Source of the DNA: Rhynchopus sp. YZ270_cl-10
Lineage: Eukaryota; Euglenozoa; Diplonemea; Diplonemida; Diplonemidae
Length of the DNA stretch: 64,000 nt
NCBI GenBank assembly: GCA_964035575.1
Contig: OZ037922.1
Location: 558,001 to 622,000 of the forward strand
Reading direction: 5' to 3'
Each line of letters starts with the position of its first letter. Positions within the stretch are counted from its first letter, which is position 1. Under the pieces are notes generated by a model, which was not told the origin of the DNA, did no database searches, and saw only the letters and a program-made list of their open reading frames with translations. This document shows, piece by piece, positions 5,181 through 57,419 of the stretch. The position numbers and the translations under genes were made by a program.

Positions 5181-5188
5181 TTAACCTA

Positions 5189-5591
5189 TTAGCCACTACC
5201 TTCACATATATGTGAAGGTAAATCAGCACCAGTATCCAAGACATTAAAATTTTGTCAAAAGTGCAAAAAAACTTTTTTAATGGATTCCGGGAGGTAGAAA
5301 CGTGTGATTCCCCTATTTTTTATGGACTTTTTAGAATTTTGTTTTTGATTTTTTCCGCCACCCACAACACGCAAACCAAGGAAAATGCGTGAAACAGGGG
5401 GGGACGGCCACATCCTAACAAATGCGATTTTTTGGATTTTGATTCTCAGAACCGCAGAAGTCCCCGAAGACCATACCAAACCACCTAGAGGACCCAAAAA
5501 ATGCACCATCGCCCCAGTTTTGACCCAGAAACACTCAGATGATTTCAAAACCAAAAACGGGAAAAAAACCCCCACCCCCCTTAGTGGCTAA
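5189..5591. mobile_element. MITE with TA target duplication, nested in element 1
   Basis: The termini TTAGCCACTA and TAGTGGCTAA are inverted copies, flanked by TA on both sides (5187-5188 and 5592-5593). Removing the 403 bp restores the left TIR of element 1 (CCTA joined to CACGACG), which matches its right TIR. The TA target suggests a Tc1/mariner-type mobiliser. It has no coding capacity. A small palindrome (ACCTTCACATATATGTGAAGGT) follows the left end. Confidence 0.85.
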
Positions 5592-5849
5592 TACACGACG
5601 TTGAAGTAACTTACTTTACTTGTGGTTTTACTTGTGGTTTTACATGTAATAATTTTTACTTGTGGTCACAAGTAATTACTTGTGCCACAAGTAACTTTTA
5701 CTTGTGCACAAGTAATTTTTTACTTGTGCACAAGTAACTTTTTACTTGTGTACACGGTGCGCTGGTCAGAGATCTGACCAGGTACCCAGGTACCCAGGTA
5801 CCCAGGTACACAGGTACACAGGTACACAGGTACACAGGTACACAGTGTA

Positions 5850-7345
5850 CAAGGAAAAAAGTCGTGAAAGAGCAACCACAGCTCCACATGACAAACACAA
5901 AAGTGTCCAGTCACGTGGGGCATGCATACACTGAGGAGATAATGATCCAACAATTTACAAGAAAGATTACTTAACCTACTGCTGGAAGTTGCCAGGTCGT
6001 AGTAACACACAAAGCGTGCCTCCGTTCGGGAAGACCGGATATTCTAGAGACCAAAAAGGCCTCAAGAATATCTTCCGGTAGTCAAGGTATAACCGAATGA
6101 ACGGCCCAAGACCCCCGTGGAGAAGTTAAATGTTGTAATGCTATCAAGTAGAAACTGCGACCACTGTCTTACCCTCCTCAATACATGGTGGAAGATGTCT
6201 TTGACAACCAATATCCTGTACCCAGGTACCCATATTCCCAGACCCACGCAGTACCACGTCGCAGTACTACGCAAAATTTACCACCAGACCCTGTCTTCGT
6301 GCACCTGAAGTACAACGCCGCAGACAGGCCAAACATGCGTTGGACTCAGAGGAATGCCCGCTGTGCAGGTATCATGAGAACCAACTCCCAGCAACAAGGG
6401 GCGCCTTTTGGCGGGCGTTGTTGAGGGTGTTTGGGGTGCAAAGTTTTCCACAATTTTGATGCGCGGGTACAGAAGTGTTGTCTTGTTCTTTCATCTCTAG
6501 GAATGTAAATGTCAATCGCGTTTAACTACCACTAGGGCTTGTTCAGTGAACCCACGAGGGGTCGAAGGGGGTTGGTTATCCCATATCTATCAAAGGTTGT
6601 GTCGACCAGGCGAATCCACTATGTTACGCTGTACGGGTTAAATCCGAAGAAATAACGCTTTAGCAGCCGCAGGAAGTTTGTTAAAAAGAGTGCCTCACGC
6701 TACACAAACCACCACCCGCGATTGACTTAGATGTTATAACAAAGAGAATTCAGAACAAAACAACACCCTGCCCCATACACACTAAATTGTCATGCTTCGA
6801 GAGCATGCCTGGGCCAAAATTACTGTGACAAAAAGGCAACAAGACCACCCACAAGGAGTGTGAAATGTGCACTGGATTTCTGGGGGAACGCAATATTTTC
6901 TTGTGCCTCGTCCTCCGCAAGCAGAGGACAGACTTTCCGGAAGGTTTCCAAAGTCGAATTTCTTGCACTAGCTATGCTCCCTGGGTTAATGGCAATAGCA
7001 GTGACTGACAAAATGTTCCCACCCCCCTTCATCCGCAAACTCAGTATTGATGCAGGTGAACGTGTGTGAGTTGAATGTCGGAGACGGCGAAGGTTCTCCT
7101 CGCACTCGCAGATGCTGTTCAGATTTCACGATCCTGTGATGAGTGGAAATGTGGGGTGTAGTTAGGTTATGGTAGCTTGGAAAATAGAAGTTAATTATGA
7201 CTTCAAGAAAAATGGTTATCGAATTTGAGGATGTAGAAAGACAGGGATGCAAAAAGTAGTGTAAAACCCCCCATATGTGAAAATTGTATTTTCTGGGGGA
7301 GATAAAACCATACCTTGTCTGCACATTCACCATTTGTGCCAGCGC
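5850..7345. repeat. Conserved noncoding core, copy 1
   Basis: About 1.5 kb nearly the same as 20613-22085 (I estimate about 95 percent by eye) and recognisable in reverse at 56340-57260. The only comparable frames are 72 codons long and differ between copies mostly at amino-acid-changing positions, so the core does not look protein-coding. It contains possible stem-loops, for example CGGATATTC at 6040 with GAATATCTTCCG at 6067. It does not resemble rRNA or tRNA that I know. Confidence 0.8.
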
Positions 7346-8166
7346 CTCTGAGGGATAGAAGCTGGTTCTGGATCAACGTGGACTGCTCTTAGGGGAACCG
7401 GGGAACCGTTCCCTGGTTCCCGTTCCGAAATGACCGGTTCATTATACTCCAGTTCCGGGGGTATCGGACTGTTGGGGCCCCCTCGCCCGACCCCCAGATG
7501 ACTGGCATGACAGCACCTTAATTTTTTTCTGCTCGCTGCGCTCGCGGAAGTACGCCCCAAAAAAATTTCCGCTCGCTTCGCGCTAACTTTTGGAAAAAAA
7601 TCTGAAAAATCGTGCTTCGGGCCCAAAAAAACGCACCTCAAATAGGGTTACGTCTGGGGGTGAAAAAGCAGTGTTTTGTGGCATTTCCGAGCTGTGGTGG
7701 GGCATATTCGGAAAAGTGGACAAATTTTAGTGACTTAAATTTTCACATAATATGAACCCATACTCCTAAACAAGGGGCATTTTCAGTCTGAAAACCCAAC
7801 TTCAGATGAAATTATGGTGTTTTTGACTGGGAACAGGTAGCGCCGCAGGCGCACGGTACCCAACCTTTTTCCTTTCCCTTTTCTCTGCTTTCTTTTGATT
7901 GCGCGAGCTGATTGCTCTCCACGGTGGGGTCACATGTGTGTGTGAAAACACTCTAAAGTACCCGTACTCTGAACTATGAGATTCCTCTGGTTCTAGTAAA
8001 GAAACCCCGGTCTCAAAAAGTGCGTAAATATCCTTTTCCGCCCAAGAGGTCGTTTTGTTGCATTTCCGAAGACCCACCCACGAGACCTGTCAAATCTATG
8101 TGACATGTTATAAAATAACATCTAATCTCGCATGTCGTATCACCAAAAACCCTAGTAACATTATCA

Positions 8167-8590
8167 TCATGTGTGGGATGGTAGGTGTTCACATGACTCG
8201 TCACAACTCTTCACAACACAGTCTATGACATATATTGTTGTGAAAGAGTTGTGAATTGAAATGAAAATTTGTGTTCTCCAATACCCCGAACACCACCAGG
8301 AAAATTGAGCCTTTTGAGCCTTCTTTCGAGCCTTCTCAAGGAGAAAAAGTTTAATTTTCCCAGTTTGTAATTTTGTTTTGCCGTACAATTGGAAATGAAG
8401 CGTTCCTTGTGCTAGTGATCGAACGGTGTAATCTTCTTCACAGGATTTGATCTTCGGAAATTTCAGAAATCCTCTCCGAGCAATGTCGTAGGTTTCTTCT
8501 GAGGCGTTCTTCTGAGCACCCTCATAGATATTTGCTGCCTGCTTCTTCGTAGCCCTTCGCGATTTTGTGTTTTTGACGTTAAAATGCCTA
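8167..8590 (-). CDS. Unrecognised basic protein inside element 1
   Basis: An open minus-strand frame of about 140 residues with coding-like composition, rich in Lys and Arg (KNTKSRRATKKQAANIYEGA, later LLEKARKKAQKAQFSWWCSG). The open frame extends up to 8652, but the upstream part overlaps sequence also seen near 54700 in element 3, where a different minus-strand frame starts, so the first 20 or so codons may be leader rather than protein. I do not recognise a domain. It could be transposon cargo or the tail of a transposase. No start codon can be fixed. Confidence 0.3.
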
Positions 8591-8901
8591 TGGGTGTTTT
8601 TTGGGGGTGAAAAAACCTCAAAAACGCGTTTTAGACCCCTAGAAAGGCTCAAAACTGCTCAATTCTGGCTGGAATTGCAAAATTGGGCACTTTTAGGGTA
8701 TGACCAAAAAAATTTTCGAGAGTTCAGTTAGTACAGAGGCGCACCTTAGAAGGTGTTGACAGGTGATTTTTACTTGTGCACAAGTAAAAAGTTACTTGTG
8801 ATCACAAGTAATTACTTGTGCCACAAGTAAACTATTTTCACAAGTAAAATTACATGTAAAACCACAAGTAAAGTCATTTACTTCAACGTCGTGTAGGTTA
8901 A

Positions 8902-9616
8902 GTCACTGAAATTTTGTCCATTTTTCCGAATATCCCCCACCACAAGCCGGGATTGGCTCGGAACTGCAACAAAACGCACTCTTGGGCGGAAAAATACCGC
9001 ACAGGTTTTTTTTCCCCCTTCACTTTTTTTTTCCTCCACTTTTTTTTTTTTGCTTCACTTTTTTTTTCCCGCCCGCCCGCTCGGATTTTGGGAAACCCAA
9101 GGACAAGAAACAAAAGAAAAAGTGTGAGTACCCTAAATGAAAAAAACGAGCCTTCCCAAAGATGCAACAATTTGTGCCTCTCGTGCACACAAACACATCG
9201 AAAAGATAAGAAAGTGAAGTTGATAGTGCAAAAAAACGCCTCTGGGACGCAGGCACACTGACACTCCACGGGGTTATCGAACCCCCGGAGTGTAGCACAT
9301 TGGGAGGCTGCCTGACAGGGAAAACTGTAAGCAACTCGAGAAGAAAAAAAAAGAAACAATCGTAGTACAAAAAGTACCTGAACAACTACAATAGTAAAAC
9401 CCGGTCCCCCCTCCCCACCAATCCCGCCCCTATAAACAATCCCAAAGAAATCACAACACAAAGGCAAATACGCTGCAACAGAATAAACTATATTGCCCTA
9501 TATTATTCAAAAGGGTAAAGATGAATCTAAACCGCAGTTTTGCTTACATTCAAAAGGCCGGCAAATTCCTTTCAAACATAACCTTCTTCTTCTTCTTCTC
9601 CTTGCTCTCCAAAAAA
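8902..9616. other. Intergenic repeats between element 1 and the TLDc-like gene
   Basis: It holds the continuing half of the repeat-F target (8905-8970), a run of T-rich tracts, repeat B (CGCCTCTGGGACGCAGGCAC at about 9236-9256) and no supported gene. Confidence 0.5.
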
Positions 9617-9619
9617 ATT

Positions 9620-9654
<35 letters not shown>

Positions 9655-9655
9655 A
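9617..9655. repeat. Poly-A tract
   Basis: A run of more than 35 A on the plus strand, just beyond the stop codon of the minus-strand TLDc-like gene. On the coding strand it is poly-T, so it is not the tail of a retrocopy of that gene. Confidence 0.9.
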
Positions 9656-9657
9656 AA

Positions 9658-12048: not shown

Positions 12049-12058
12049 TGTCGACTAA
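12049..12058 (-). promoter_or_regulatory. Leader acceptor of the TLDc-like gene
   Basis: CCTCATTTTTTTTTAG ends at 12055, leaving a six-base leader before the ATG at 12048. This is the clearest of several pyrimidine-AG acceptors placed directly before start codons of the host genes here. An ordinary cis intron in the 5' leader is the alternative. Confidence 0.45.
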
Positions 12059-12319
12059 AAAAAAATGAGGGGGAAAAAAAAGTTCCGAAAAAAAAAAAGG
12101 GGGTGGTTTGTATCAAAGAATTGTAGGGTTTTGGTATAGAGGCTGTTGTGTGTATGGGGGTGCAAAACCCAACCCCATGCAATGAAAAAGGGTGAAGAGA
12201 AGAAAAAAAGGGGGCAATGTAAAAGAGTGGGTGGTGTGGTGTGTATGAGGGGGAAAAGGAGACCCCACCTTCCCCCTTCTGTTCTGGAGGATGAGGGGGG
12301 TGGGTGTGGTATAGGGGAG

Positions 12320-12427
12320 TACCGTATTCGTGCAAATATTCGACCGTAAAAAAAGGGTCGAACTTTCAGAAAAAAATCCTGAAAAGGTCGAAGATTATTA
12401 CGGTCGATAATTTGTACGAATACGGTA
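12320..12427. mobile_element. Palindromic MITE, copy 1
   Basis: A 108-bp imperfect palindrome with ends TACCGTATTCGTGCAAA and TTTGTACGAATACGGTA and an inner pair CGACCGTAA / TTACGGTCG. A second copy lies at 48149-48250. It sits upstream of the TLDc-like gene. Confidence 0.85.
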
Positions 12428-12590
12428 TTTGAGATACAATGTGAAGCACAGCAGAAAAATTGTGGGGGGTAAAGATAGCTACTTTTTATAACCGAACAAG
12501 AAAAAAATCGTTTTTTCTTGCAAGAGTGGTGTTCTTGGTGGCCGAAAAGCCACGAAACGCACAATTCCCCCAAAAAAAAAACTCCCCTTT

Positions 12591-13775: not shown

Positions 13776-13849
13776 GGTGTGATATGGCTTATTGCATATG
13801 TAGGGGTGGGGGATGTCTGTGGGGTAGAGGGTGTGAAGGAAATTAAAAT

Positions 13850-15830: not shown

Positions 15831-15924
15831 AAAGTGGCCAAAAATCATGTAAAATACTGCTTCCCACCCAACATTCTCCCCACAACGTCGTTCTGACACC
15901 CATACAACATCAACATCGTTTTTA

Positions 15925-16602: not shown

Positions 16603-16639
16603 GTGTGGCGGGTGTGTGCCTGATTAGTGAGGAAAGAGA

Positions 16640-17290: not shown

Positions 17291-17291
17291 T

Positions 17292-20156: not shown

Positions 20157-20363
20157 TTTGGGGGGAGTTTTAGAGAAAAAAAGGGGTGTAAAGGAGATGC
20201 ACCACGCTTTAGGCGAGGGTCATAGTGTGGGGTAGCTGTGTGTGTGTGGTTTTTCCCCTGAAATATGAAGGTTGGAATAGGGGGGTGGTTTGGGGGTGGG
20301 GGTAAATACACGGTGGAGTAGTCGACCGTCATTGTTTCAGTTGTTTTTTTTGGGGTAATTATC

Positions 20364-22272
20364 ATAACACCCACGTTACTAATACCCATTTACGATAATA
20401 CCCACTGGGTATTATCGTAAACTTTTTGGGTATTATCGTAAACTTTTTGGGTATTAGTTTTGGGTATTATCGTAAACTTTTTGGGTATTATCGTAAACTT
20501 TTTGGGTATTATCGTAAACTTTTTGGGTATTACCCAGGTTGGGTAGTACCCAGGTACCCAGGTACCCAGGTACCCAGGTCCAGGTCCAGGAACAGGTACC
20601 CAGGAACAGGATAAAAGTCGTGAAAGAGCAACCACAGCTCCACATGACAAACACAAAAGTGTCCAGTCACGTGGGGCATGCATGCATTGAGGAGATAATG
20701 ATCCAACAATTTACAAGAAAGATTACTTAACCTACTGCTGGAAGTTGCCAGGTCGTAGTAACACACAAAGCGTGCCTCCGTTCGGGAAGACCGGATATTC
20801 TAGAGACCAAAAAGGCCTCAAGAATATCTTCCGGTAGTCAAGGTATAACCGAATGAACGGCCCAAGACCCCCGTGGAGAAGTTAAATGTTGTAATGCTAT
20901 CAAGTAGAAACTGCGACCACTGTCTTACCCTCCTCAATGCATGGTGGAAGATGTCTTACACAACCAATATCCTGTACCCAGGTACCCATATTCCCAGACC
21001 CACGCAGTACCACGTCGCAGTACTACGCAAAATTTACCACCAGACCCTGTCTTCGTGCACCTTAAGTACAACGCCGCAGACAGGCCAAACATGCGTTGGA
21101 CTCAGAGGAATGCCTGCTGTGCAGTGTATCAAACATGAGAACCAACTCCCAGCAACAAGGGGCGCCTTTTGGCGGGCGTTGTTGAGGGTGTTTGGGGTAC
21201 AAAGTTTTCCACAATTTTGATGCGCGGGTACAGAAGTGTTGTCTTGTTCTTTCATCTCTAGGAATGTAAATGTCAATCGCGTTTAACTACCACTAGGGCT
21301 TGTTCAGTGAACCCACAAGGGGTCGAAGGGGGTTGGTTATCCCATATCTATCAAAGGTTGTGTCGACCAGGCTAAACCACTATGTTACGCTGTACGTTGT
21401 TAAATCCGAAGAAATAACACATTAGCAGCCGCAGGAAGTTTGCTAAAAAGAGTGCCTCACGCTACACAAACCACCACCCGCGATTGACTTAGATGTTATA
21501 ACAAAGAGAATTCAGAACAAAACAACACCCTGCCCCATACACACTAAATTGTCATGCTTCAAGAGCATGCCTGGGCCAAAATTACTATGACGAAAAGGCA
21601 ACAAGACCACCCACAAGGAGTGTGAAATGTGCACTGGTTTTCTGGGGGAACGCAATATTTTCTTGTGTCTAGTCCTCCGCGAGCAGAGGACAGACTTTCC
21701 GGAAGGTTGCCAAAGTCGAATTTCTTGCACTAGCTATGCTCCCTGGGCTAATGGCTATAGCAGTGACTGACTAAATGTTCCCACCCAGGTCTTCGTGTGT
21801 TGAGGTGTAGAATGTCGGAGACGGAGAAGCGCAATCGCTGATGCAGTTCAGATTTCGCGATCCTGTGATGAGTGTAAATGTGGGTGTAATTAAGTTATGT
21901 CGCTTGGAGAAAGATTAATTGTTAATTGTCAAGAAAAATGGTTACCCTGAATTTGAGGATGTAAGACAGGGATGCAAAAAGTTGTGTAAAAACCCCCCAT
22001 ATATTTAGTGAAAATTGTATTTTCTCTGGGGTCGATGAAACCATACCTTGTCTGCACATTCACCAGCGTGCGAGCGCCTCTGATACCTTGCGCGAGTAGC
22101 CAGCTAAATCACATCGTACCTGGGTAATACCCAACAAGTTTACGATAATACCCAAAACTAATACCCAAAAAGTTTACGATAATACCCAAAAACTTTACGA
22201 TAATACCCAAAAAGTTTACGATAATACCCAGTGGGTATTATCGTAAATGGGTATTAGTAACGTGGGTGTTAT
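20364..22272. mobile_element. Element 2: TIR transposon with shared core, different ends
   Basis: Terminal inverted repeats of about 160-175 bp (20364-20538 and 22112-22272) begin ATAACACCCACG and consist mainly of tandem GTTTACGATAATACCCAAAAA-type units. Directly inside the left end lies a GGTACCCA array (about 20546-20610), then the core (20613-22085) shared with element 1. The ends have no similarity to those of element 1. I cannot define a target duplication. No transposase frame is present. Confidence 0.85.
20613..22085. repeat. Conserved noncoding core, copy 2
   Basis: Matches 5850-7345 along its whole length with scattered substitutions and short indels, in the same orientation relative to the 8-bp array. 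The match stops abruptly at both ends where the element-specific termini begin. Confidence 0.85.
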
Positions 22273-23695
22273 AGTCATTTTCCCGTTTTTTTTTTGACAA
22301 CAGTTCTGCAGGGCGCACCTATGTAGAGTAGGGTGCGTATTGTGACTATTTGGGGTAGATTTTTTTAAATCTTGTTCCGGGGGGTATGGTACGTTAGACA
22401 TCTTCACAACCTCTTCACAGATTTTTTTGGCAACTGTACACACCCAAGTAAATGGAAGATAAAGGTTGGCGGCATTGAGGAAGGGCAATATTGTCAGATA
22501 TTTACAACGAGAACGGTGATGCCAATGCGCGTGTTGTGCAGTGGTGAAGTGATGGCAATGTGCATGTTGTGCAATGGTGGTGCCCGAAAGGGCCTGAATG
22601 AAATGCGGAGCCTCATCTGCCGTCAGCACCTCCACAGCCCCGTGGTAGGGGTGGCACGCCGCAAACCCACCCTGCTTCTCCAGCCCCCGAATACGCCCAC
22701 GCAACCCGATTCATTGCCAACAAGAGAACCACAAACGCGATACACAGGAGCAACACCAGTGAAAAAGAGCTCAACTTTGACGAAAACAAGGAAATGTGCT
22801 GGTAAATGAACGGTACCGTGATCAGTATATTTAAAAAAAACTGCATTGACTGAATACTTAGGTACACAAATCTTCGAAGAGTGAAATATAACAAAAAGAA
22901 GAAAAACGCAGTTCCGCGGGTAGGGGGACGAGAGAGACCCCCTTTTTTTATTGTTTTGCCGCTTCGTCGAATAATAAAGTATACACCTGTTGGTCATACA
23001 GGACAGGTTCAGTGTGTCCTTAGGAAAAATGCCATCCCGAAAAGCCCCCCCCTTTCCTTCCCCCTACCTAGCCCCTAACTACCATACTTTATGTAGCTTT
23101 GTTTTTGCATTTTTTTGTGTTTTGTTTTTGCGGGAAAATTTTAAAAAAAACCTCTGATATTCTTCGTGGCCTTTTTTACCCCATTTTTTTTTTGAAGATA
23201 GGTTTCTTTCTTCTGATAAATCTGAAATCAGCCAACCCTGCGATCCCTTGATTTTTTATTATTTTTTTTTGCTGTTTTTCTCGATCTCGCACAGAATAGA
23301 GCACCCGCATACAAGAAAGAACTAACAAAAGAAAAAGGTTGTGAGACGAATATGCTTCCATGCACACATCTCGCAAAAAGGGATTGCAAATACAAAATTG
23401 ACCTCTGAGAAAGGTTGAGTAGGTGGGGGGAGTAGAAGAAGTGGGAAGAAAACACACTACACTTACAACCAAATGTCAAATACAATAATGGGAAAAAACA
23501 TTCCGCAAGACTTACCCATTAACTGATTAGCAGGAAAAGCCCATTTTTTCCCCTTTTAATGCACTTCGAAACGTCGTGCAAAAATGACACCCAAAGATGT
23601 CTTTTTTTCCCCTGTCTCTCCCCCAAAAAAATACCTCAATTCCAAACGAGAACAGAGGCATTGTTGGAGTGGTAAAAGAGCTATGTTTTCATTGT
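22273..23695. other. Intergenic stretch, no confirmed gene
   Basis: A minus-strand stretch at about 22700-22360 (GRIRGLEKQGGFAACHPYHG and on) and an overlapping hydrophobic frame (about 22840-22690) look partly protein-like but have no usable start and no family match. The rest is AT-rich with homopolymer runs. Confidence 0.35.
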
Positions 23696-29324: not shown

Positions 29325-31885
29325 CCCCCTAGGCATAGGTGCCGGCCGAGTCGTTTTTGGGCGAGTTGTCCGAACTCCACGATTTTACCAAACAACTCGC
29401 CCAAAACTCGCACAACTCGCCCACAACTCGCCCTATACTCGCCACAACTCGCCCTATACTCGGCACAACTCGCCCACAACTCGGCCACAACTCGCCCATT
29501 TATACAGGCAAAAACATACAGGGATGGGAGGGGACGTTGTAAGGTTACACACATGTAACGTTGGTACAACACATGATCTCAAGAAAAACAACCAGGGCTA
29601 AGGCCAAACGCCACTCATTACATGCACCTTGTCATATGACTAGGCATAGGTGGTAACTAGGTCGTGGTGGTCCATGGGTCACCGTGCACACTCACGGTTT
29701 TTGGTAATTGCTGGGGGGAATGGGATATACTCCGTACATGGCTACCCACACAGAACACATGGTTCCCCAGACATCCGTCAGGCAATCACTGATTCACTTC
29801 ACACAGGTCGGGCAGGCGCCGCCTGCTCATCCTCTTTTCCTGTCTGCTATCGATTACAGGTTCACAACGTTCGCACGTTCAGTCAAAATGCTTTGGGCGA
29901 CGACTTCCCTTGGGATACAAAGCATACAAAACCACCCAAAGTGCACATTCACAGACCAGCTGTGAAGCGGCAAAGAGTCGTTCAAGCTGAGATGCACAAG
30001 ATAAAATGTGATGTGGTGCACCTGTGCACCTGTGCACCTGTGCACCTGTGTACCTGTGTACCTGTGTACCTGTGTACCTGTGTACCTGTGTACCTGTGTA
30101 CCTGTGCACCTGTGTACCTGTGTACCTGTGTACCTGTGTACCTGTGTACCTGTGTACCTGTGTACCTGTGTACCTGTGCACCTGTGTACCTGTGTACCTG
30201 TGTACCTGTGCACCTGTGTACCTGTGTACCTGTGTACCTGTGTACCTGTGTACCTGTGTACCTGTGTACCTGTGTACCTGTGTACCTGTGTACCTGTGTA
30301 CCTGTGTACCTGTGTACCTGTGTACCTGTGTACCTGTGTACCTGTGTACCTGTGTACCTGTGTACCTGTGTACCTGTGTACCTGTGTACCTGTGTACCTG
30401 TGTACCTGTGTACCTGTGTACCTGTGTACCTGTGTACCTGTGTACCTGTGTACCTGTGTACCTGTGTACCTGTGTACCTGTGTACCTGTGTACCTGTGTA
30501 CCTGTGTACCTGTGTACCTGTGTACCTGTGTACCTGTGTACCTGTGCACCTGTGTACCTGTGTACCTGTGTACCTGTGCACCTGTGTACCTGTGTACCTG
30601 TGTACCTGTGTACCTGTGTACCTGTGTACCTGTGTACCTGTGTACCTGTGTACCTGTGTACCTGTGTACCTGTGTACCTGTGTACCTGTGTACCTGTGTA
30701 CCTGTGTACCTGTGTACCTGTGTACCTGTGTACCTGTGTACCTGTGTACCTGTGTACCTGTGTACCTGTGTACCTGTGTACCTGTGTACCTGTGTACCTG
30801 TGTACCTGTGTACCTGTGTACCTGTGTACCTGTGTACCTGTGTACCTGTGCACCTGTGCACCTGTGTACCTGTGTACCTGTGTACCTGTGCACCTGTGTA
30901 CCTGTGTACCTGTGTACCTGTGTACCTGTGTACCTGTGTACCTGTGTACCTGTGTACCTGTGTACCTGTGTACCTGTGTACCTGTGTACCTGTGTACCTG
31001 TGTACCTGTGTACCTGTGTACCTGTGTACCTGTGTACCTGTGTACCTGTGTACCTGTGTACCTGTGTACCTGTGTACCTGTGCACCTGTGTACCTGTGTA
31101 CCTGTGTACCTGTGTACCTGTGTACCTGTGTACCTGTGTACCTGTGTACCTGTGTACCTGTGTACCTGTGTACCTGTGTACCTGTGTACCTGTGTACCTG
31201 TGTACCTGTGTACCTGTGTACCTGTGTACCTGTGTACCTGTGTACCTGTGTACCTGTGTACCTGTGTACCTGTGTACCTGTGTACCTGTGTACCTGTGTA
31301 CCTGTGTACCTGTGTACCTGTGTACCTGTGTACCTGTGTACCTGTGTACCTGTGTACCTGTGTACCTGTGTACCTGTGTACCTGTGTACCTGTGTACCTG
31401 TGTACCTGTGTACCTGTGTACCTGTGTACCTGTGTACCTGTGTACCTGTGTACCTGTGTACCTGTGTACCTGTGTACCTGTGTACCTGTGTACCTGTGTA
31501 CCTGTGTACCTGTGTACCTGTGTACCTGTGTACCTGTGTACCTGTGTACCTGTGTACCTGTGTACCTGTGTACCTGTGTACCTGTGTACCTGTGTACCTG
31601 TGTACCTGTGTACCTGTGTACCTGTGTACCTGTGTACCTGTGTACCTGTGTACCTGTGTACCTGTGTACCTGTGTACCTGTGTACCTGTGTACCTGTGTA
31701 CCTGTGTACCTGTGTACCTGTGTACCTGTGTACCTGTGTACCTGTGTACCTGTGTACCTGTGTTTTTGTAGCCATAAAAAATCCCGAAAAAAAACAACTC
31801 GCCCAAAAAAAATGGGCGAGTTGTTGGCCGAATTTGGGCGAGTTGCCGAGTTGTTTTTAACTCGCCGGGCACCTATGCCTAGGGG
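29325..31885. mobile_element. Element 4: TIR element carrying a giant 8-bp satellite
   Basis: Ends are inverted copies of CCCCCTAGGCATAGGTGCC, followed inward by tandem CAACTCGCCCA-type units on both sides. A partial second end-like motif (CTAGGCATAGGTGGTAACTA) lies at 29640. The interior has about 350 bp of unique sequence (29640-30010) and then the satellite 30018-31762. The long frames running through the satellite on both strands are artefacts of the 8-bp period. Confidence 0.8.
30018..31762. repeat. 8-bp satellite (CCTGTGTA)n, about 218 copies
   Basis: An almost pure array of CCTGTGTA, with a minority variant CCTGTGCA scattered at the left and middle. The same unit in reverse (GGTACACA, GGTACCCA) occurs in a few copies next to the cores of elements 1, 2 and 3, so this looks like a runaway expansion of a component of that transposon group. 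Confidence 0.97.
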
Positions 31886-33808: not shown

Positions 33809-34630
33809 AGGTAAAGGTAAAGGTAAAGGTAAAGGTAAAGGTAAAGGTAAAGGTAAAGGTAAAGGTAAAGGTAAAGGTAAAGGTAAAGGTAAAGGTAAAG
33901 GTAAAGGTAAAGGTAAAGGTAAAGGTAAAGGTAAAGGTAAAGGTAAAGGTAAAGGTAAAGGTAAAGGTAAAGGTAAAGGTAAAGGTAAAGGTAAAGGTAA
34001 AGGTAAAGGTAAAGGTAAAGGTAAAGGTAAAGGTAAAGGTAAAGGTAAAGGTAAAGGTAAAGGTAAAGGTAAAGGTAAAGGTAAAGGTAAAGGTAAAGGT
34101 AAAGGTAAAGGTAAAGGTAAAGGTAAAGGTAAAGGTAAAGGTAAAGGTAAAGGTAAAGGTAAAGGTAAAGGTAAAGGTAAAGGTAAAGGTAAAGGTAAAG
34201 GTAAAGGTAAAGGTAAAGGTAAAGGTAAAGGTAAAGGTAAAGGTAAAGGTAAAGGTAAAGGTAAAGGTAAAGGTAAAGGTAAAGGTAAAGGTAAAGGTAA
34301 AGGTAAAGGTAAAGGTAAAGGTAAAGGTAAAGGTAAAGGTAAAGGTAAAGGTAAAGGTAAAGGTAAAGGTAAAGGTAAAGGTAAAGGTAAAGGTAAAGGT
34401 AAAGGTAAAGGTAAAGGTAAAGGTAAAGGTAAAGGTAAAGGTAAAGGTAAAGGTAAAGGTAAAGGTAAAGGTAAAGGTAAAGGTAAAGGTAAAGGTAAAG
34501 GTAAAGGTAAAGGTAAAGGTAAAGGTAAAGGTAAAGGTAAAGGTAAAGGTAAAGGTAAAGGTAAAGGTAAAGGTAAAGGTAAAGGTAAAGGTAAAGGTAA
34601 AGGTAAAGGTAAAGGTAAAGGTAAAGGTAC
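33809..34630. repeat. Hexamer satellite (GGTAAA)n, about 137 copies
   Basis: A pure GGTAAA array with slight decay at the right end (GGTACA, GGTAAGGG, then two scattered units near 34727 and 34740). The period of six gives endless open frames (Gly-Lys, Leu-Tyr or Leu-Pro repeats) that are not genes. Confidence 0.97.
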
Positions 34631-34827
34631 AGGTAAGGGAAACAAGCCTGGGAGCATACTGGCACCTGAATCTATGGTCACCACACCCTTTAACTTTCCT
34701 TCAGTCCCACAGACACAGTCACAACCAGGTAAAGGGCGAGGTAAAGGGAGAGGTACAAAGCTTGGGAGTGGGCTCAGGAGCGAAGCCCCCTCGAGGGGTG
34801 AAACCCCTCGAGTCTGTGTGAAATGAA

Positions 34828-35376: not shown

Positions 35377-35384
35377 ATACTAAA

Positions 35385-40684: not shown

Positions 40685-40689
40685 GGTTG

Positions 40690-42282: not shown

Positions 42283-42648
42283 CGCAGTATACACAGTATA
42301 CACAGTATACACAGTATACACAGTATACACAGTATACACAGTATACACAGTATACACAGTATACACAGTATACACAGTATACACAGTATACACAGTATAC
42401 ACAGTATACACAGTATACACAGTATACACAGTATACACAGTATACACAGTATACACAGTATACACAGTATACACAGTATACACAGTATACACAGTATACA
42501 CAGTATACACAGTATACACAGTATACACAGTATACACAGTATACACAGTATACACAGTATACACAGTATACACAGTATACACAGTATACACAGTATACAC
42601 AGTATACACAGTATACACAGTATACACAGTATACACAGTATACACAGG
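42283..42648. repeat. 9-bp satellite (GTATACACA)n, about 40 copies
   Basis: A pure array that ends sharply at GGGGATTGGG, beyond which a different satellite begins. Period nine produces long spurious frames in several registers. Confidence 0.97.
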
Positions 42649-42655
42649 GGATTGG

Positions 42656-43194
42656 GAGTACAGTACAGTACAGTACAGTACAGTACAGTACAGTACAGTA
42701 CAGTACAGTACAGTACAGTACAGTACAGTACAGTACAGTACAGTACAGTACAGTACAGTACAGTACAGTACAGTACAGTACAGTACAGTACAGTACAGTA
42801 CAGTACAGTACAGTACAGTACAGTACAGTACAGTACAGTACAGTACAGTACAGTACAGTACAGTACAGTACAGTACAGTACAGTACAGTACAGTACAGTA
42901 CAGTACAGTACAGTACAGTACAGTACAGTACAGTACAGTACAGTACAGTACAGTACAGTACAGTACAGTACAGTACAGTACAGTACAGTACAGTACAGTA
43001 CAGTACAGTACAGTACAGTACAGTACAGTACAGTACAGTACAGTACAGTACAGTACAGTACAGTACAGTACAGTACAGTACAGTACAGTACAGTACAGTA
43101 CAGTACAGTACAGTACAGTACAGTACAGTACAGTACAGTACAGTACAGTACAGTACAGTACAGTACAGTACAGTACAGTACAGTACAGTACAGT
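42656..43194. repeat. 5-bp satellite (GTACA)n, about 107 copies
   Basis: A pure GTACA array with one disturbed unit at its right end (CAGTCAGTAC). It is separated from the 9-bp array by only about 10 bp. Confidence 0.97.
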
Positions 43195-43429
43195 CAGTAC
43201 AGAGGTCACTTACATGTGGTGGCATGCTTCCCTGTAGGGTGGTGTACCATTTTTTTCCCCAGCGTAATTTCGGTGTAATTGTGTGTAATTGTGGTGTAAT
43301 TGTGGTTAGTTGTGGTTAGTTGTGTGTACTTGTGCTGAAACTGTACTGGAATTGTGCCTAATATAGGCACAGCTCAGGTGAGTATGGTGCTAGCTGTGCC
43401 CAGTAGTGTCATAGGCAAAACGGTACAAT

Positions 43430-43994: not shown

Positions 43995-44002
43995 CCCTAA
44001 AG

Positions 44003-44058
44003 CAGTGCTGTAAGAATACGAATAAGAATACGTAAGAATACATATTCTTACAGCACTG
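44003..44058. mobile_element. 56-bp hAT-type MITE with 8-bp target duplication
   Basis: Ends CAGTGCTGTAAGAATA and TATTCTTACAGCACTG are inverted copies. CCCTAAAG flanks both sides (43995-44002 and 44059-44066). CAGTGCTG ends with an 8-bp duplication are the hallmark of hAT. It lies 15 bp past the end of the carrier gene. Confidence 0.92.
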
Positions 44059-44072
44059 CCCTAAAGGGGGAG

Positions 44073-44918: not shown

Positions 44919-44939
44919 TTTTTTATGATCCTGAAAAAG

Positions 44940-45805: not shown

Positions 45806-45812
45806 CAGGGAC

Positions 45813-46142: not shown

Positions 46143-46149
46143 TGTGTGT

Positions 46150-48140: not shown

Positions 48141-48148
48141 TCAACCAA

Positions 48149-48250
48149 CCGTATTCGTACAAAACTATCGACCGTAAAAAAGGTCGAACTTCCAGAAAAA
48201 TCCTGAAAAGGTCGAACATTATTACGGTCGATACTTTGTACGAATACAGT
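48149..48250. mobile_element. Palindromic MITE, copy 2
   Basis: Same structure as 12320-12427: CGTATTCGTACAAA at the left, TTTGTACGAATAC at the right, with inner CGACCGTAA/TTACGGTCG. Confidence 0.85.
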
Positions 48251-48259
48251 ATTTTACCC

Positions 48260-50192: not shown

Positions 50193-53010
50193 TCAACAAT
50201 CTTCGTGTCCGCGGTGGAAGGACATCGAAGACTCCTGCCAAGCCGTCTCCCCTCTCAGTTCTGGCACAGGTCCCAGCAACTCCTTAATTCTGTGGAGGGG
50301 GGGGAAAATGGAAGTTGGAAGTGCAGAAAGTATATCATAATATTATGCAATAAATAGCATAGGAGGGGTCAACAAAAAATGGTCCCATCTTTCTTTATGT
50401 GGTATGTTAGAAAAAATATGGTAGCTATTGATGCCTGTTTTAGATGAAAGTGTTGAGTACTCTACGGTCAATGAAGGTGAGATGCGAAGAAACCTTGTTG
50501 TTTCTAGTTTTGTACCTTCACTTTCCACACACTTACAGATAGTTAGTGCAGACCTGCGGAGTGCGCTCGAGGACTTGAGGACTTGAGGAATGCGAGTCCG
50601 AAGGTGAATACTCTCCCGAAAATGAAACAGCGAGCGGCCACAAGGGTATGATACCAGTATTGTGTTTTTGGCTTCTTGTTTTTTTTTCTTCTAACGTTGC
50701 CACTTTCTGCAGGGAAGTGTGACAACTTCTTCAGTTGGCAGTGTCTCGAGTAGACTGTCTGCTCTAGAACAGACAGTGTCTGATAGTAAAGGCAGTATCT
50801 GCTCAGAGAAGAACACTGGATTGTACTCAGTACTTCAGACATTGCTCAACGATAAAGCAGCAGAGAAGAAGAAAAATGGATAACCGCAATGCAGGGCGGT
50901 ACACAGTAACCAAGATGGGGCAGAGCGAGCGCTGACTGTTGGTCGCTGTTTTCATCGACCTGGTGACATAATTGGCCATGCACGCAGAGGGCGTAGTACC
51001 GTGCTCCTTAAGGCTGATACTGGAGAGCTACCAGTGTAAACACCCCACGTGAATGGGGTATTATGTGTGACTACTCATCCGTCTGCCGATACAAGATCAG
51101 GGAGGAAGAGACGGATTACGGGAAAGACATATTACACGTACCAGAACGCAAGGAGGTTGAGCACCACAGCAGAGGCCCGTTTGGACGCGAATTGGTTCTT
51201 GCCCCGGTACCTGCGCCGACACAGCGAGACACACTAACCAAGAAGAGGAAGAAGACGACACAAAAGACTTTCTCTGCATCCCACAGCACACCAGAGAGAC
51301 CCACCAGCGTTGGCAGCGCTGTTGGCAATCTGGGGAGTGGGCCCCTTGCACGCACCTCCATCCAAAGCCACCCACACAACCTGTAGTTCCCTGCCACAAC
51401 CCACCCCACCTCACCAACGAAGTGCCGAATGCCCCAATTGCCCAACCCAATCCAACCCAACCCACTCGTGCCGTTGCTTCCCAAGCTACTCATGGTGCAA
51501 GGTGTCATGCTCTGAATGCACCATTCATGGTTACAGAAGAAATACAGACGAGGCACACTTCATCCGTGAGTGTGGTAAGACATAGCTAACCTTAGGTCTG
51601 AGGGAAAATACACTTTTTTGTGAGTGCTTTAGTGTATGAACGGGGTTTGTAAAGGTGTAAATGAATAAAATAGAAGCGAAGCTTTTTTTTCTGGAAAAAG
51701 GGGAAGGTTTTGGAAAATGCATACTTCTTCATGACCTCGTCCTTCTTGCTCATCCTCTTGTGCCAGACTTTTATGCGGATTGCGCTAGAGGGGCCTTGCG
51801 ATTTGCCCTTTTTGGACTTATTCAAGTGCACTTCGTTCGAGATCGCCACGATTTCGTCGTCCTCAATGTCTGCACTGGTGAAGCGCTGTCCGATAGCAGA
51901 CATCAGCAGGTATTTCCAGAAGTTATCGCTGTATAGTGGTAGTATTGGGATGTGAACACAACAACAAAAAACTGACTATGAAAATAGATACACATGACAG
52001 TGCATATTTGGTACATGACCGGTGTACCGTGCACCACAAAGTGCAGTACTCAACATTCCAACATGAGCAACTGTGCCACAAAAAAAAAAAAATCCATGAA
52101 AATTGGAGGAAATTCTCAGACAAAATAGAAGGAAACCAGAACGTTTGCTCTTCATAGAATGTGATCGGGTTTGGACAGTCCATTTGGTGAAGGCATCGGG
52201 GTGAGGTTGTGATTGTATTATTACCCCAAAAGAAATTCTTTCATATACTTTTTTATTCCACTAGGTATAATACGGTGCACCAAATGTACCCAGGCTTTTG
52301 AGTAAAGAAAAAACAGAAAAATAGACGAAAACACTTTCTCTTCAAGGGGAAGGGAAGGTTTCGACACACACAGCTGCGCTTTCGTGTTGACACATACCTT
52401 TTTTTGTCAAGCAGAAACGTCCACGTGCCTCCCTCCTTGAGCTCCGGGTCTTCCCACTCTGGTCTAACACCTGCGCGGCAGAGGGTGAAGCCCTGCTTGT
52501 TCTCGTTGTCGTTCAGCTCGCTGGGCTTGGGAAGCTCCATGAAAAAGACCCAGAATTCCTGAAAGATTTTTGAATATTTTATGAATATTTTTTGTAGTTT
52601 TCGACAATCACCCTGTCCGAGGACTGGGTTCTGTACACAAAGTCGCCCGAAGGCTAAATGAATTTCAAAAGAAAATGCATCCCCAACCAAAGAAATATCT
52701 TTTAAGTTTGTTGTGTCGACAATCGCCGAGTAATCCCACCAGGTGGGAGAATTCGGGTCTGTACTCAATGTTGGCCGAAGCCTTTGTACTGCATTAGTGT
52801 AGACACCCGAGGATGTGCTCCACATCGCCACTATCACTTTTGTTGAACGTACTACTGTGCTAGGAGGGGGTCCAGAAGGAATACCTGCACCGTTGTTATA
52901 TCGTAGTTGATCTTTATCGTGCAGTCCCGGTACGACTCTTCCCCCTGCGGTGACCCTTTACAGAACCAATAATTCCATGTTTTGAATGCAGGCTTCTGTG
53001 TCATAGCCAT
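50193..53010 (-). CDS. Cap-binding protein eIF4E, class II (4EHP-like), four exons
   Basis: Exons 53010-52885, 52558-52398, 51928-51725 and 50289-50193; junctions are GT-AG with phases 0, 2 and 2, all consistent, giving 195 residues. The protein binds the mRNA 5' cap. Visible family marks: NYWFCKG, FDTVEDFW-like TTVQEFWVFF (W45), PRPSEL-like PKPSEL, GVRPEWEDP (W77 and E78, the cap-stacking Trp and the Glu that holds the guanine), GGTWTFLL, DNFWKYLLMSAIGQRF, and AIRIKVWHK before the C-terminal helix. The first cap-sandwich Trp is replaced by Tyr (ESYRDCTIKI, Y27), which marks class II members such as 4EHP/eIF4E2, usually translational repressors. An acceptor (CTTCACACAG) ends 16 nt before the ATG. 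Confidence 0.93.
50520..51600 (+). pseudogene. Plus-strand gene relic inside eIF4E intron 3
   Basis: A stretch opposite in strand to the host gene. It begins after TTTCTAGTTTTGTACCTTCA and CACACACTTACAG, the same intron end as in the header-intron nuclease family, and contains coding-like pieces: a coiled segment (SSRLSALEQTVSDSKGSICS at about 50729), a charged piece at 51063-51386 and a Cys-rich piece (CKVSCSECTIHGYRRN) near 51500. It is likely a dead member or remnant of that mobile gene family. Confidence 0.45.
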
Positions 53011-53024
53011 TTTGTGTGTTGTGC

Positions 53025-53723
53025 TCTGTGTGAAGGGGTTGCTTTGTGGGTTGGGCGAGAGGGGGAGAGAGGAAACACAGAAAGGTAGGGAGATGAACGC
53101 TATTGTTTTTGTAGATTTTTGGTGTTTTTTTGGCGCTTTTTTGGTGTTTTTCTTTTGTTTTTTTGAAAACTTTTTTACCATTCCTTTTTAGGGAACGGAG
53201 CATGTACGGTCCTGGAAGCTCCAAGAAAATGAAGTTGCCTTTCTAAACGTGCACACGCTAGCTTGGTGAGGGACATAGCTTGGGTTTTCAAAGTGAACAC
53301 GCCTTTTTTTTCTTTTTTGAAAACTTGGTTGTATTAGTGTAGACACCGAGGATGAACTCCACTATTATTTTTTTTTTGTAATTATGTAATAGGTGGTAAT
53401 AAGAGGCTGGCATTAGTGCAGACACCCGAAGACGTGCACGTTGCAACAATGAGGTTGTATGGATGGCGATAGAGGTGAAACAAACAGTACAGTCCGGTAC
53501 GTGGCGAGGGGGTGGTGGACGGATACATATCACAACACATCACAAAGACTCGTCATGTGTATTTGTGAGCTGCCTGTGATTGCTTGTCTACTGCCCCCTC
53601 GCCACTCCATGGGTGGGTTAAATAAAAGATGCGAATAAAAGTCAAAAATTGTAATATGGGGTTACTCGTTTCAAATTTGCACAGGTGGCAGCTACACCAT
53701 TTTTTTGCGAATTTTGGTGATCA
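53025..53723. repeat. Upstream region of eIF4E with repeat C copies
   Basis: Repeat C in reverse at about 53325-53370 and, partly, 53408-53440; the flank of element 3 begins at 53724. A copy of the TTCCTTTTTAGGGAACGGAG palindrome at 53178-53198 also occurs at 14787-14806. Confidence 0.5.
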
Positions 53724-54083
53724 CACGGTGGCCAGTTTGATGTGGGACAGCGTCAAAAGTGGACGATAATACTGGTTCAGAATTGCTGTCCCACGGGACA
53801 GCATATGCTCTCCCAGGGACAGCATATGCTGTCCCAGTGACAGCGTCTGGGATAGCGTCGGGACAGCATACGCTATCCCGTGGGATAGCGTCGGGATAGC
53901 GTACGCTATCCCGTGGGACAGCGTCTGCTCCCGGTGGCTATTGCCTCCCAGGGAAAGGGACTCTCGAATTTTTTTTTTTGCCCCTACATAGGGCTAATTT
54001 CGACGATTTGAGGCCATTAAAAGCAAAGAAAAGTTTATAAGATGATCCTAAGCCTCTCGTGCTTAGTCACCTTATCATATTCG

Positions 54084-54698
54084 TTATCGCATAGCTTCAG
54101 CTGCGCTGGCTTCTACAAGTTTGTTGTCAGGGATGATGTCATTTCCCCAGCCGGAGTTCGTAATTTTGGCACGTACGATGACGTGTTCGAGCATGTGCAT
54201 AGTGTAGCGCGGGTACGTAAAAACTGGGCGACGGTCGTAGCCTATAAGTCCGGGTGCGCCAATGGACCGGAGGCCCCGTGAGGAGGAGATGGCAGATGCG
54301 GGAAATGGGTTTTGGATCCCAAGAGCTTTGCACAGGCGGTGAAGCTTGTTGAGCAATGTGCGCAAGGCAGAGGCCCGTTCTCTAATGTTAGAGGTTGGCC
54401 GGAGAACGTAGATCCTGTGGAAAATTTCCAAGTCAATGGCAAGTTCCACGCATGTCACAGGCAGGTTGGCGGTGCTCCATTTCAGGGAGGAGGCCCATTG
54501 GAGCATTCGCTTCAGTTCGTGGCGCTTCTGCTTGCATCTCGGATCATCGTCCTTCCCAAAGAAAGGGGCGAGCTGCCGGTAGATGGCCTCCTGGTATGGG
54601 GGCGCATCGAACACTTCAAAGTCCATACGCCATGGGTGGCGTGCAGGCGCTGTGGTAGTCCGCGAGGACAGGTGATCATCTACAGCAAAATTTGGCAC
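54084..54698 (-). CDS. Unrecognised protein inside element 3, possibly RT-like tail
   Basis: An open minus-strand frame of 204 residues with clear coding character (WSTANLPVTCVELAIDLEIF, then RERASALRTLLNKLHRLCKA and YPRYTMHMLEHVIVRAKI). The block VTCVELAIDLEIF loosely recalls the segment after the reverse transcriptase in some protist non-LTR elements, where a Trp/Glu-Leu-x-x-Asp motif is common, but no catalytic motif is present in this piece. The 3' end overlaps repeat D sequence. Function unknown; either transposon cargo or a fragment of another element. Confidence 0.4.
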   Translation of the reverse strand: MPNFAVDDHLSSRTTTAPARHPWRMDFEVFDAPPYQEAIYRQLAPFFGKDDDPRCKQKRHELKRMLQWASSLKWSTANLPVTCVELAIDLEIFHRIYVLRPTSNIRERASALRTLLNKLHRLCKALGIQNPFPASAISSSRGLRSIGAPGLIGYDRRPVFTYPRYTMHMLEHVIVRAKITNSGWGNDIIPDNKLVEASAAEAMR

Positions 54699-56034
54699 TT
54701 TTGAGCATCTAGGGGGGTCTAAAACGCGGTTTCGCGAACCCGAAATTTTGTGATTTTTACCGAGGACAAGTCGGTTTTTGAAAAAATCTCAAAAACAAAA
54801 AAAAAATTTTCGGGAAAATTTCGACCCCTGAGTTGGGTTTTTGGGCACCAAAAAGTGCAAAAAAACGCAAAAATCGGGTGTTTTGACGATCTGGGGGTAA
54901 ACCAAATGCACTACTACAGGGGCCGAATTTTCCTTAGCAATTCCTTCACAAAGTACAAGGCAATTTTTGACAGGCATATTGCTAACTTTGCCGAAAGTGG
55001 AAAAAAGCAAAACGGCGACACTTTTTTTTTTTTCCAGGCCAAAAAAAATTTTCCCCCCGTTGAAAGCGGTCGTCGCGCGCTTCGCGCGCGCCTCCCTGCC
55101 AACCACAGAGGGTATTATATAGCCCCCCTAGCCTCCACCAAAAAGGTGGTTTTGTGTGAGGCAGTCATTTTTTTCTGTGCGGAAAACTCAGCGAAAAATA
55201 TTCTCGGTATTTTGTGATGCACGGCCAACCTACACCACCCCAACCCTTCTCTGCGGGAAAGCTTCCCTCCTCTGTGCCTTGGTAGCTTTCAGCCACTGGT
55301 GATCCGCAATCCGTAGTGGGTGTCCGCCTTCTTATCATCTTAGTAAATTTATAAAAGAAATGGTGGCTATGGACTAACCAAAGGTTAGTCAGGTAACCAA
55401 AGGTTCCTGGCGAAGCCACGGTACGCAACATTTCAAAAATCGCGCTTAAAATTGTACTATTTTACAGCATGGGAAGGGTGTGATGTAAGCTTGCGCCGCA
55501 GGCGCACGGTACGCTACTTTTATGATTTTGCCAGATCCCTTTTCTCAAAAAATGACGGCAGGAAACGGCGTTTTGTCGCGTTGAAACGCCGTGTTCTCGG
55601 GGGGAACGGCGCTTCGCCAATTTTGAAAACGGCCTTTTTTTAAAAGGCAAAACGGCGAAACGGCGTTTTCAAAAATTTTTTTTTGTGATTTTGGCCAAAA
55701 AGGCAAAACGGCGAAACGGCACTTAGCAATATGCCTGATTTTTGACCAAACTATTTTTTTTTTTTTTATCGCTCAAAAAATCCAAGGGAACCTCAGATTT
55801 ACTAGTTCAAGAAAAAAATTGTCAAGTCGAAATTTCAGCCAAAATACGGCCACCCCGCGCGAGCCATATTATCGATGGGGAGAGTAGGCCGAGTGCAAGG
55901 TATGTTTTTAAACCCCCGGTTTTCCCCCTTTTCGACATTGTCCCGCTCAGATGTAAATTGAATCTTTTTTTTTTTTTTTTTTTTTTTTTTGCCAACAAAA
56001 ATGTCCCTTTTACGTTTAAGGGGTACGGGGCGGC

Positions 56035-56146
56035 TTCTTGTTTGTTTGTTTGTTTGTTTGTTTGTTTGTTTGTTTGTTTGTTTGTTTGTTTGTTTGTTTG
56101 TTTGTTTGTTTGTTTGTTTGTTTTGTTTTGTTTTGTTTTGTTTTTG
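56035..56146. repeat. Microsatellite (TTTG)n grading into (TTTTG)n
   Basis: About 21 TTTG units followed by four TTTTG units, inside element 3. Confidence 0.97.
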
Positions 56147-56339
56147 TTGTAGTCTCTACTTTTACATTCAATTTCTCTTAACAGGTACCCGAACCGACGA
56201 CCCTTCATCGTGACAGCGAAGCAGTGCCGACGGTGCAATTATTTCAAAACCAGGTGGAGGCCGTAAAAGTCGGGTTTAGAAACCAACTTTTCCATTAACC
56301 CACCCCATAGACCACCCCAATTATTATAAACTCTCTTAG

Positions 56340-57260
56340 TCAGTCACTGCTATAGCCATTTAACCCAGGGAGCATAGCTAGTGCAAGAAATTCGACTTCG
56401 GGATCCAGAAAGTCTGTCCTCTGCTTGCGGAGGACTAGGCACAAGAAAATATTGCGTTCCCCCAGAAAACCAGTTTTTGTCAGAGTAATTTTTGCCCAGG
56501 GCATGCTCTTGAAGCATGGCGGCTTGGTGTGAGAAGGGGCAGTGTATTGTTTTGTTCTAGATTTCGACGGTTGTTAGAACGAGTCAAGTGGATGCTTATC
56601 TAAACACTGACTTTAGTACAGACCCGAGAGATCAGATATGACTTTGAGGAAAGAACAAAGCAATGCATCTGTACCCGCACGCCAGGTTGTAGTTACTTCA
56701 GAATTTTCTTAAGTTTGCGCGAAAGAGAGCGGGGGCAACTCCTTTGTGTCATAAGTCCGCTGTGCAGAACAAAGCTAGGAACCTTAAAACACTACCTGCG
56801 TGGTGGCTGAATTCACATCCCTTAGAATTACCAGAATTCAGCCTTTGTTGAAGTAACGTACATACTTGTATGTGCGTGTCACGCTTCTCCATCCTTAAAT
56901 GGGTGCACTGCTTCACTGCAGCGGGTGAGCCTCTCTCGACTAGTGCAAACTTAAGAATTTTCTGCTGTAACTTACCAAAATCGATTTTCTTTCACCCCAA
57001 ACACCCGCAACACCCCACCTGCTACTTCGGTAGCCTGTGTTGTTGGGAGTTGGTTCTCATGTTGATCCCCAGTGTTTTACACTGCTTCTTCTGAGCCCAA
57101 CGCTGTTTGGCCTGTCGACGTAATAAATACGAAGACAGGGCGGCGGTAATTTTCCGATGATGTAACGTTTATCTGATTGATTTATCGTTTGATATACCTT
57201 GTTGTGTTCCTACTTCACTGCACACCAAGCAACGTATATTGAACGGTACTTTCAAGCGAT
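56340..57260. repeat. Conserved core, copy 3 (reverse, diverged)
   Basis: In reverse orientation it matches the right and middle parts of copies 1 and 2: AACCCAGGGAGCATAGCTAG at 56361, GGACAGACTTTC-type sequence, and the AGTTGGTTCTCAT segment near 57045. It is clearly more diverged than copies 1 and 2 are from each other, and the part corresponding to about 5850-6300 is mostly replaced. Confidence 0.75.
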
Positions 57261-57419
57261 ACTTCGTTATGTCATTGGGGGGTACCTGGGTACCTGGGTG
57301 CCTGGGTGGCCAGACGCTCTCCCTGGGATAGCGTACGCTATCCCAAACGGGATAGCGTACGCTATCCCAAATAACGTCACATTTTGACGCTGTCCCACTC
57401 AAACTGGCCACCGTGCACC

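Follow-up and report, generated by a model that had tools for sequence, protein, structure and literature searches.

A noncoding core behind different transposon ends in the diplonemid Rhynchopus sp. YZ270_cl-10

The classification of DNA transposons rests on their ends, which are assumed to persist while the middles are lost. CORE-SINEs have a conserved centre with differing head and tail modules; these are retrotransposons, unlike the cut-and-paste elements considered here. We examined a 64,000-nucleotide window of the Rhynchopus sp. YZ270_cl-10 genome (contig OZ037922.1; G000:C90:558001-622000 in our numbering) that contains three elements, E1, E2 and E3, each with a noncoding core beside a short array of 8-bp units. 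A first-pass annotation of the window had proposed that the middle of these elements is kept while their ends differ. This proposal is borne out genome-wide, with clean target-site duplications (TSDs) of different length in two end classes.

The nearest described systems, represented here by excerpts of the papers cited, each resemble this arrangement in part. The CMITEs of Acropora corals are ~100 bp long with a 75-bp middle, and the three families first described all use TTAA and belong to one superfamily; their internal region, of unknown origin, varies less between families than do the terminal inverted repeats (TIRs), and insertion of a CMITE created a new element with the outer ends (PMC2872659). 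The same relation of middle to ends is found here, but the core is ~1.1-1.5 kb, is joined to ~11 groups of ends and occurs in hundreds of copies, and the duplications are of 2 and 9 bp rather than the TTAA of the piggyBac type. The coral CMITEs are a small precedent within one superfamily. In the Galileo chimeras of Drosophila mojavensis, both TIRs come from one subfamily and the internal region from another, for which the authors invoke ectopic recombination and conversion; as excerpted, that exchange is among subfamilies of one P-superfamily element and crosses no superfamily boundary (PMC3573991). Plant Mutator-like elements (MULEs) with multiple tandem TIRs carry an additional terminal repeat internal to the outer one, a possible origin discussed there being a nested insertion whose inner TSD was then lost; their extra TIRs are of the same family, whereas the inner end of E1 is of another class (PMC3310237). 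In MER6, a miniature inverted-repeat transposable element (MITE), the V domain of fish SINEs, a conserved noncoding sequence, lies between ends of a different class (PMC6887750), but this involves one host element in mammals and not many end classes in one genome. The VANDAL MULEs of Arabidopsis, with their VANC proteins, have fast-diverging noncoding tandem repeats that are relevant to silencing; those repeats diverge and are bound by element-encoded proteins (PMC10398659), whereas the array described here is common to unrelated families and has no known protein. Within the open-licence PMC papers, Galileo, the tandem-TIR MULEs and MER6 show single steps of what is combined in this genome, and the combined pattern may be published elsewhere.

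A noncoding module of array and core

We consider it probable that a left-anchored noncoding module, the 8-bp GGTACCCA array followed by a core of ~1.1 kb, is carried by many cut-and-paste families using different transposases. A GGTACCCA/GGTACACA array adjoins the core in all three window elements (Table 1), as had been claimed. E1 and E2 are 91.8% identical over a 1,590-column alignment (5782-7351 versus 20546-22083). The claim of a common core holds for this pair and only partly for E3, which at the same cut-off matches both E1 and E2 over a 264-column block at 76% and E2 alone over a 125-column block at 73%. The E3 core belongs to a second, diverged core lineage.

Both lineages are abundant in the genome (152.4 Mb, 126 contigs). 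A 32-base lineage-1 start, searched with ≤3 mismatches, has 765 matches (391 + 374; reversed control 0), the lineage-2 start has 297 (148 + 149), and 1,422 places (740 + 682) match 33 bases taken from the shared 3' block. Among the closest 40 scored copies of the E1 core, 11 are ~99-100% identical, an E2-like set lies at ~91-93% and partial copies at 94-95%. The viral contigs gave 0 exact matches to one 33-base core pattern. For closer reading we sampled 20 loci of 9.8 kb at core copies, 16 loci from searches, seven of ~4 kb and 10 upstream pieces of ~0.8 kb, the last a non-random set picked by hand from 74.

The first ~1 kb of the core is near-identical across end classes, and the array sits between end and core in every copy read. 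Every lineage-1 copy read has the same left core boundary (…AAAAGTCGTGAAAGAGC). On the right, similarity to E1 stops at a position that varies with the class, 7159 (G), 7173 (H), 7096 (I) or 7351 (B), and a second copy in locus L025 has only 464 bases of core. Lineage 2 has a different start sequence behind the same array. The constant left edge and ragged right edge make the core unlike one inserted element, and no duplication or inverted repeat belonging to the core itself was seen in the copies read.

Two further arrangements involve these components. At 3079-5648 of L027, a lineage-1 core that lacks the left B end stands head to head, via ACGATCGTA repeats, with an inverted lineage-2 core. 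Window positions 30016-31763 hold a satellite of ~218 copies of GTGTACCT, which is the 8-bp unit of the core-side GGTACACA array; no adjoining core piece was found at this satellite.

End classes and target-site duplications

Fifteen end types (A-O) were found joined to the module. They were compared by local alignment with 60 single-base shuffles per pair, two ends being called similar when they scored >8 above the best shuffle. Similarity was found for 5 of the 105 pairs (B-J, H-N, I-J, B-I and D-E), which reduces the classes to ~11 end groups. The pairs formed by the ends of E1, E2 and E3 (A-B, A-C and B-C) lie outside the 25 best-scoring of the 105, and the claim that these three have unrelated ends stands in the sense that no relationship is detectable in shuffle-tested alignments. 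The several end classes found genome-wide exclude a single TIR type for all copies of the core. The palindromes and tandem units named as TIRs by the first-pass annotation are, however, subterminal repeats, the real termini being CACGACG in E1, GGGGTAATT in E2 and CACGGTGGCC in E3.

The outlines of two elements need correction. E2, drawn at 20364-22272, is real but extends to 20352 and 22284, with a 9-bp TSD, GTTTTTTTT. E1, drawn at 5185-8897, is also real, but its start was misplaced: 5185-5593 together with 8896-8897 is a separate MITE flanked by TTAA duplications (5181-5184 and 8898-8901), and E1 inserted two bases inside the right end of this host. Both outer flanks match a single uninterrupted inverted repeat copy at 7673-7789. 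The host MITE is itself inserted in another repeat.

Class A has a 2-bp TSD in 10/10 intact copies and a 3-bp TSD in 0/10; the duplicated sequence is TA six times, with CT, CA, CG and TG making up the remainder. Class B has a 9-bp TSD in 10/10 copies with both ends found (L027 and L028 have no findable left end). A 9-bp TSD, TTTTCATTT, flanks the class H copy in L038, the other copy (L039) lying uninformatively in a T run, and the one class C copy tested has a 2-bp duplication. The ends use different transposition systems.

The MULE profile PF10551 has 12 matches in the genome, four of them on C1-C8. One of these (C4:17767-17982) lies, together with a shared core block at C4:14953, between the class H ends at C4:13389 and C4:20035. 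On C7 the match and the core start of a copy with an I end are 3.3 kb apart, and on C5 the distance to a core start is 4.5 kb; the fourth, C4:1565444, has no core nearby among the matches listed. No MULE match was found near a class B end on C1-C8. Class H has two hallmarks of Mutator-like elements, a MULE transposase domain between its ends and a 9-bp duplication (L038), and class B has the duplication of ~9 bp. The carriers of the core are mostly non-autonomous derivatives, but at least one of them contains a MULE transposase domain.

Class A has the 2-3 bp duplication and subterminal repeats of CACTA/EnSpm elements. E1 is not filed there because its terminus is CACGACG rather than CACTA or CACTG. 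The Transposase_21 profile (PF02992) had no match in the genome, and its control also matched in none of 14 genomes.

A tally of 100 exact core starts listed on C1-C8 found 26 with a listed end ≤2.5 kb upstream in the right orientation (B 11, H 9, E 3 and I 3), class E matches with one mismatch being omitted. The listings behind these tallies comprise 100 of the 765 lineage-1 starts, 100 of 176 class H and 100 of 238 class E places, 100 of the 297 lineage-2 starts and 100 of the 1,422 shared blocks. All nine H-ended starts among these matches have an opposite H end downstream. The 10 hand-picked copies from the other 74 carry J, G, K, K, L, M, N, an E variant, O and G. Among the lineage-2 matches listed, 52 of 100 starts have a class D end upstream, at distances that step by 8 bp (49/52 equal 7 modulo 8), which indicates whole array units and thus array turnover. 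Paired class D ends enclose a listed core in 31 of 33 cases, mostly with lengths of 3.0-3.9 kb and three of 8.40 kb; the distance and pair analysis covers 53 of the 61 exact class D places (up to C91).

The three 8.40-kb class D elements (C3:1483564, C4:947773 and C20:843587) could be the autonomous partners of the class D elements of 3 kb. At G000:C13:561378-641045, the matches listed include at least 12 same-strand class E ends spaced ~4.8-13 kb apart, an apparent tandem amplification, and G000:C8:1264154-1445014 has seven same-strand class B-like ends with two mismatches, mostly ~15-16 kb apart.

Movement of cores between ends and the weight of other explanations

Just inside the class A repeats lies the terminus of another class, E (CACGGTGCGCTGGTCAGAG), preceded by TA or CA. 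As this inner end is kept in 11/11 class A loci, nested capture offers an account of the E1 family; in its simplest form, a core-carrying element with E ends would have landed in one with A ends, the composite then spreading with A ends. The suggestion that core similarity reflects later insertion of a separate element is correct to the extent that the core of the E1 family seemingly arrived inside a nested E-ended element, but the core itself has neither a fixed right boundary nor a duplication of its own.

The cores also exchange sequence. Across ~250 bp (5915-6161), E1 differs from the class B consensus at nine sites, and E2 has the E1 base at eight of them; the ninth is private to E1, and E2 is class B again past 6183. 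This shows a gene conversion tract in the E2 core from E1-type sequence. Its donor could be E1 itself, at a distance of 14.8 kb, or a different class A copy. Among 44 informative core sites, 417 of 946 pairs are incompatible, and incompatibility between neighbouring sites is 0.371 versus 0.441 ± 0.028 in shuffled order, with 10 of 2000 shuffles as low. Nearby sites are thus more compatible than shuffled ones, as expected from recombination among cores. (Gapped columns and 6822-6832 were excluded from this test, and the second L025 copy, of class K, from it and from the variable-site listing, synonymous-change count and TSD tests.)

What the copies display directly is a single core with several end classes that differ in TSD length, together with one inner end and one conversion tract. 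Two routes could connect them: (i) a core-carrying element would insert into an end of a second element, and both would then move together by the outer ends, as the inner E end suggests; and (ii) recombination and gene conversion among core copies would maintain the likeness between families and shift segments from one core to another. A crossover within the array may swap the left end. The array as point of exchange, like the order of events and the pairing of transposases with classes, is inferred.

Several observations weigh against this account. Classes C, E and G have a common 7-base terminus, CACGGTG/CACCGTG (one change allowed), CACGACG is common to A and D, and D and E also score as similar; the differences between some classes may therefore reflect old kinship and not a swap. 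Classes E, F, G, I, J, K, L, M, N and O were each read at a single end, and these are therefore called ends from their position and repeat structure rather than from a duplication put to the test. Several class B duplications contain A or T runs, and those that are nearly homopolymers (L020, L025) carry less weight. For the classes with a 2-bp TSD, the search turned up no autonomous partner. The conversion donor is uncertain, as of the two rarer sites the G at 5924 also occurs in one other class B copy and the C at 6015 in one other class A copy.

Could the core be a gene or an RNA? As a protein gene it is rejected by stops in all six frames of the copies examined. The best forward frame has 28 synonymous changes against 22.3 ± 4.1 expected, which is not significant (45/400 permutations as high), and one reverse frame has 29 against 24.6 ± 4.2 (67/400). 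ORF-level Pfam scans covered stretches other than the core. At the Rfam gathering score there were 0 matches in the window; relaxing the thresholds over 5600-7400 produced 18 weak matches, of which 17 fall in the end repeats (5600-5773) and the other at 7321-7340, so that the core before 7321 has none. Only 3 of 28 folding windows (14 per strand) fall below z -2, and a stable hairpin region lies at 5960-6109 (z -2.8 on the + strand, -3.9 on the -). The earlier idea of an RNA-based module is not upheld by these results, and the lineage-1 copies are too alike for covariation. The block kept in both core lineages is, from its conservation, the best candidate for function.

It is rather unlikely, in our estimate, that selection acts on the module in cis, whether as promoter, enhancer, anti-silencing target or transposition enhancer, or through an RNA made from it, and that this drives end exchange. 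The copy number (765 + 297 starts, 1,422 shared blocks), the near-identity of the first ~1 kb across classes, the block kept in both lineages, the unvarying place of the array in the copies read and the hairpin at 5960-6109 would all fit; against this, gene conversion alone could keep cores alike, the Rfam search and 25 of the 28 folding windows give no sign of a structured RNA, and elements with the same ends exist without a nearby core start among the matches listed.

Less probable still is that the core descends from a second gene or 3' region, now decayed, that belonged to an ancestral autonomous MULE, the present elements being deletion derivatives with fast-diverging ends and few real swaps. 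Three of the four MULE matches on C1-C8 (C4, C7 and C5) are near a core or block and all face the core, and variable sites at 5859-6998 lean to one codon position (42, 23 and 21 of 86, hand count). Yet class A, and class C in the one copy tested, have 2-bp and not 9-bp duplications, the frames are closed by stops and lack a significant synonymous excess, and the B/I/J, H/N and O ends have no mutual similarity. We regard it as very improbable that the core is a separate mobile element inserting beside GGTACCCA arrays within other transposons' ends; the constant left boundary in the lineage-1 copies read is as expected of such an element, but the boundary on the right changes from class to class, neither a duplication nor an inverted repeat of its own was seen and lineage 2 starts differently behind the same array.

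Table 1. Features of E1, E2 and E3 (window positions) and loci assigned to each end class
Feature	Positions or loci	Strand	Remarks
E1, class A element	5594..8893	+	termini CACGACGTTGAAGTAA; 2-bp TSD TA at 5592-5593 / 8894-8895
Host MITE of E1, left part	5185..5593	+	ends CCTATTAGCCACTA; last 2 bases at 8896-8897; outside E1
E1 left end, class A	5594..5752	+	TTACTTGTGCACAAGTAA subterminal palindromes
Inner class E end within class A end	5753..5779	+	CACGGTGCGCTGGTCAGAG; in 11/11 class A loci read
8-bp array in E1	5779..5851	+	CAGGTACC/CAGGTACA
Lineage-1 core in E1	5859..7351	+	best conserved to ~7012; common to E2 up to 7351
Core 3' block, also kept in lineage-2 core	6871..7012	+	contains genome search pattern GTCGAATTTCTTGCACTAGCTATGCTCCCTGGG
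E1 right end, class A	8770..8893	-	
E2, class B element	20352..22284	+	GGGGTAATTATCATAACACCC...CCC; 9-bp TSD at 20343-20351 / 22285-22293
E2 left end	20352..20545	+	GGGTATTATCGTAAACTTTTT subterminal repeats
8-bp array in E2	20546..20604	+	GTACCCAG
Lineage-1 core in E2	20615..22083	+	
E2 core stretch matching E1-type, unlike other class B copies	20671..20917	+	corresponds to 5915-6161
E2 right end, class B	22118..22284	-	
E3, class C element	53724..57415	-	termini CACGGTGGCCAGTTTGA; CA both sides, 53722-53723 / 57416-57417
E3 array-side end, class C	57310..57415	-	GGGATAGCGTACGCTATCCC palindromes
Short array of E3	57280..57307	-	GGTACCCA
Lineage-2 core in E3	56336..57280	-	at the cut-off used, 56336-56558 aligns to E1 and E2, 56994-57116 to E2
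E3 other end, class C	53724..53927	+	
End class A	E1, L009-L018		
End class B	E2, L019-L026, L043		only right ends in L027, L028
End class C	E3, L030-L032		
End class D	L033-L036		
End class E	second copy in L017, L051		also inside A
End class F	L027		repeat ACGATCGTA
End class G	L037, L045, L053		
End class H	L038, L039		
End class I	L040-L042		
End class J	L044		
End class K	L046, L047, second copy in L025		
End class L	L048		
End class M	L049		
End class N	L050		
End class O	L052		

Other contents of the window and implications for transposon classification

E3 includes a 234-aa open frame (54087-54788, - strand) without a Pfam match, whose database relatives are one identical cluster of 14 members and one weak relative. 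Elsewhere in the window there are pure tandem arrays of AGGTAA (x138, at 33809-34636) and of CAGTATACA (x40) and AGTAC (x109), the latter two at 42285-43202. Its eukaryotic genes include those for a mitochondrial carrier, a ubiquitin-like protein and an RNA polymerase subunit; the carrier has its best other database hit, at 60%, in a transcriptome protein.

The elements described here suggest that a transposon can retain and transmit its middle while exchanging its ends. It is possible, and we propose it tentatively, that array and core form a cis-acting hitch-hiker that would acquire, time and again, ends served by transposases of different superfamilies and would pass between unrelated transposons through nested capture and gene conversion, with selection acting on the middle and the ends being replaceable. 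In this genome a stable middle is combined with ends of different integration systems, so that a classification by ends scatters one lineage and a classification by middles merges unrelated ones. With its hundreds of near-identical copies, layered ends and conversion tract, the genome could allow a change of transposase by non-autonomous elements to be tested directly.

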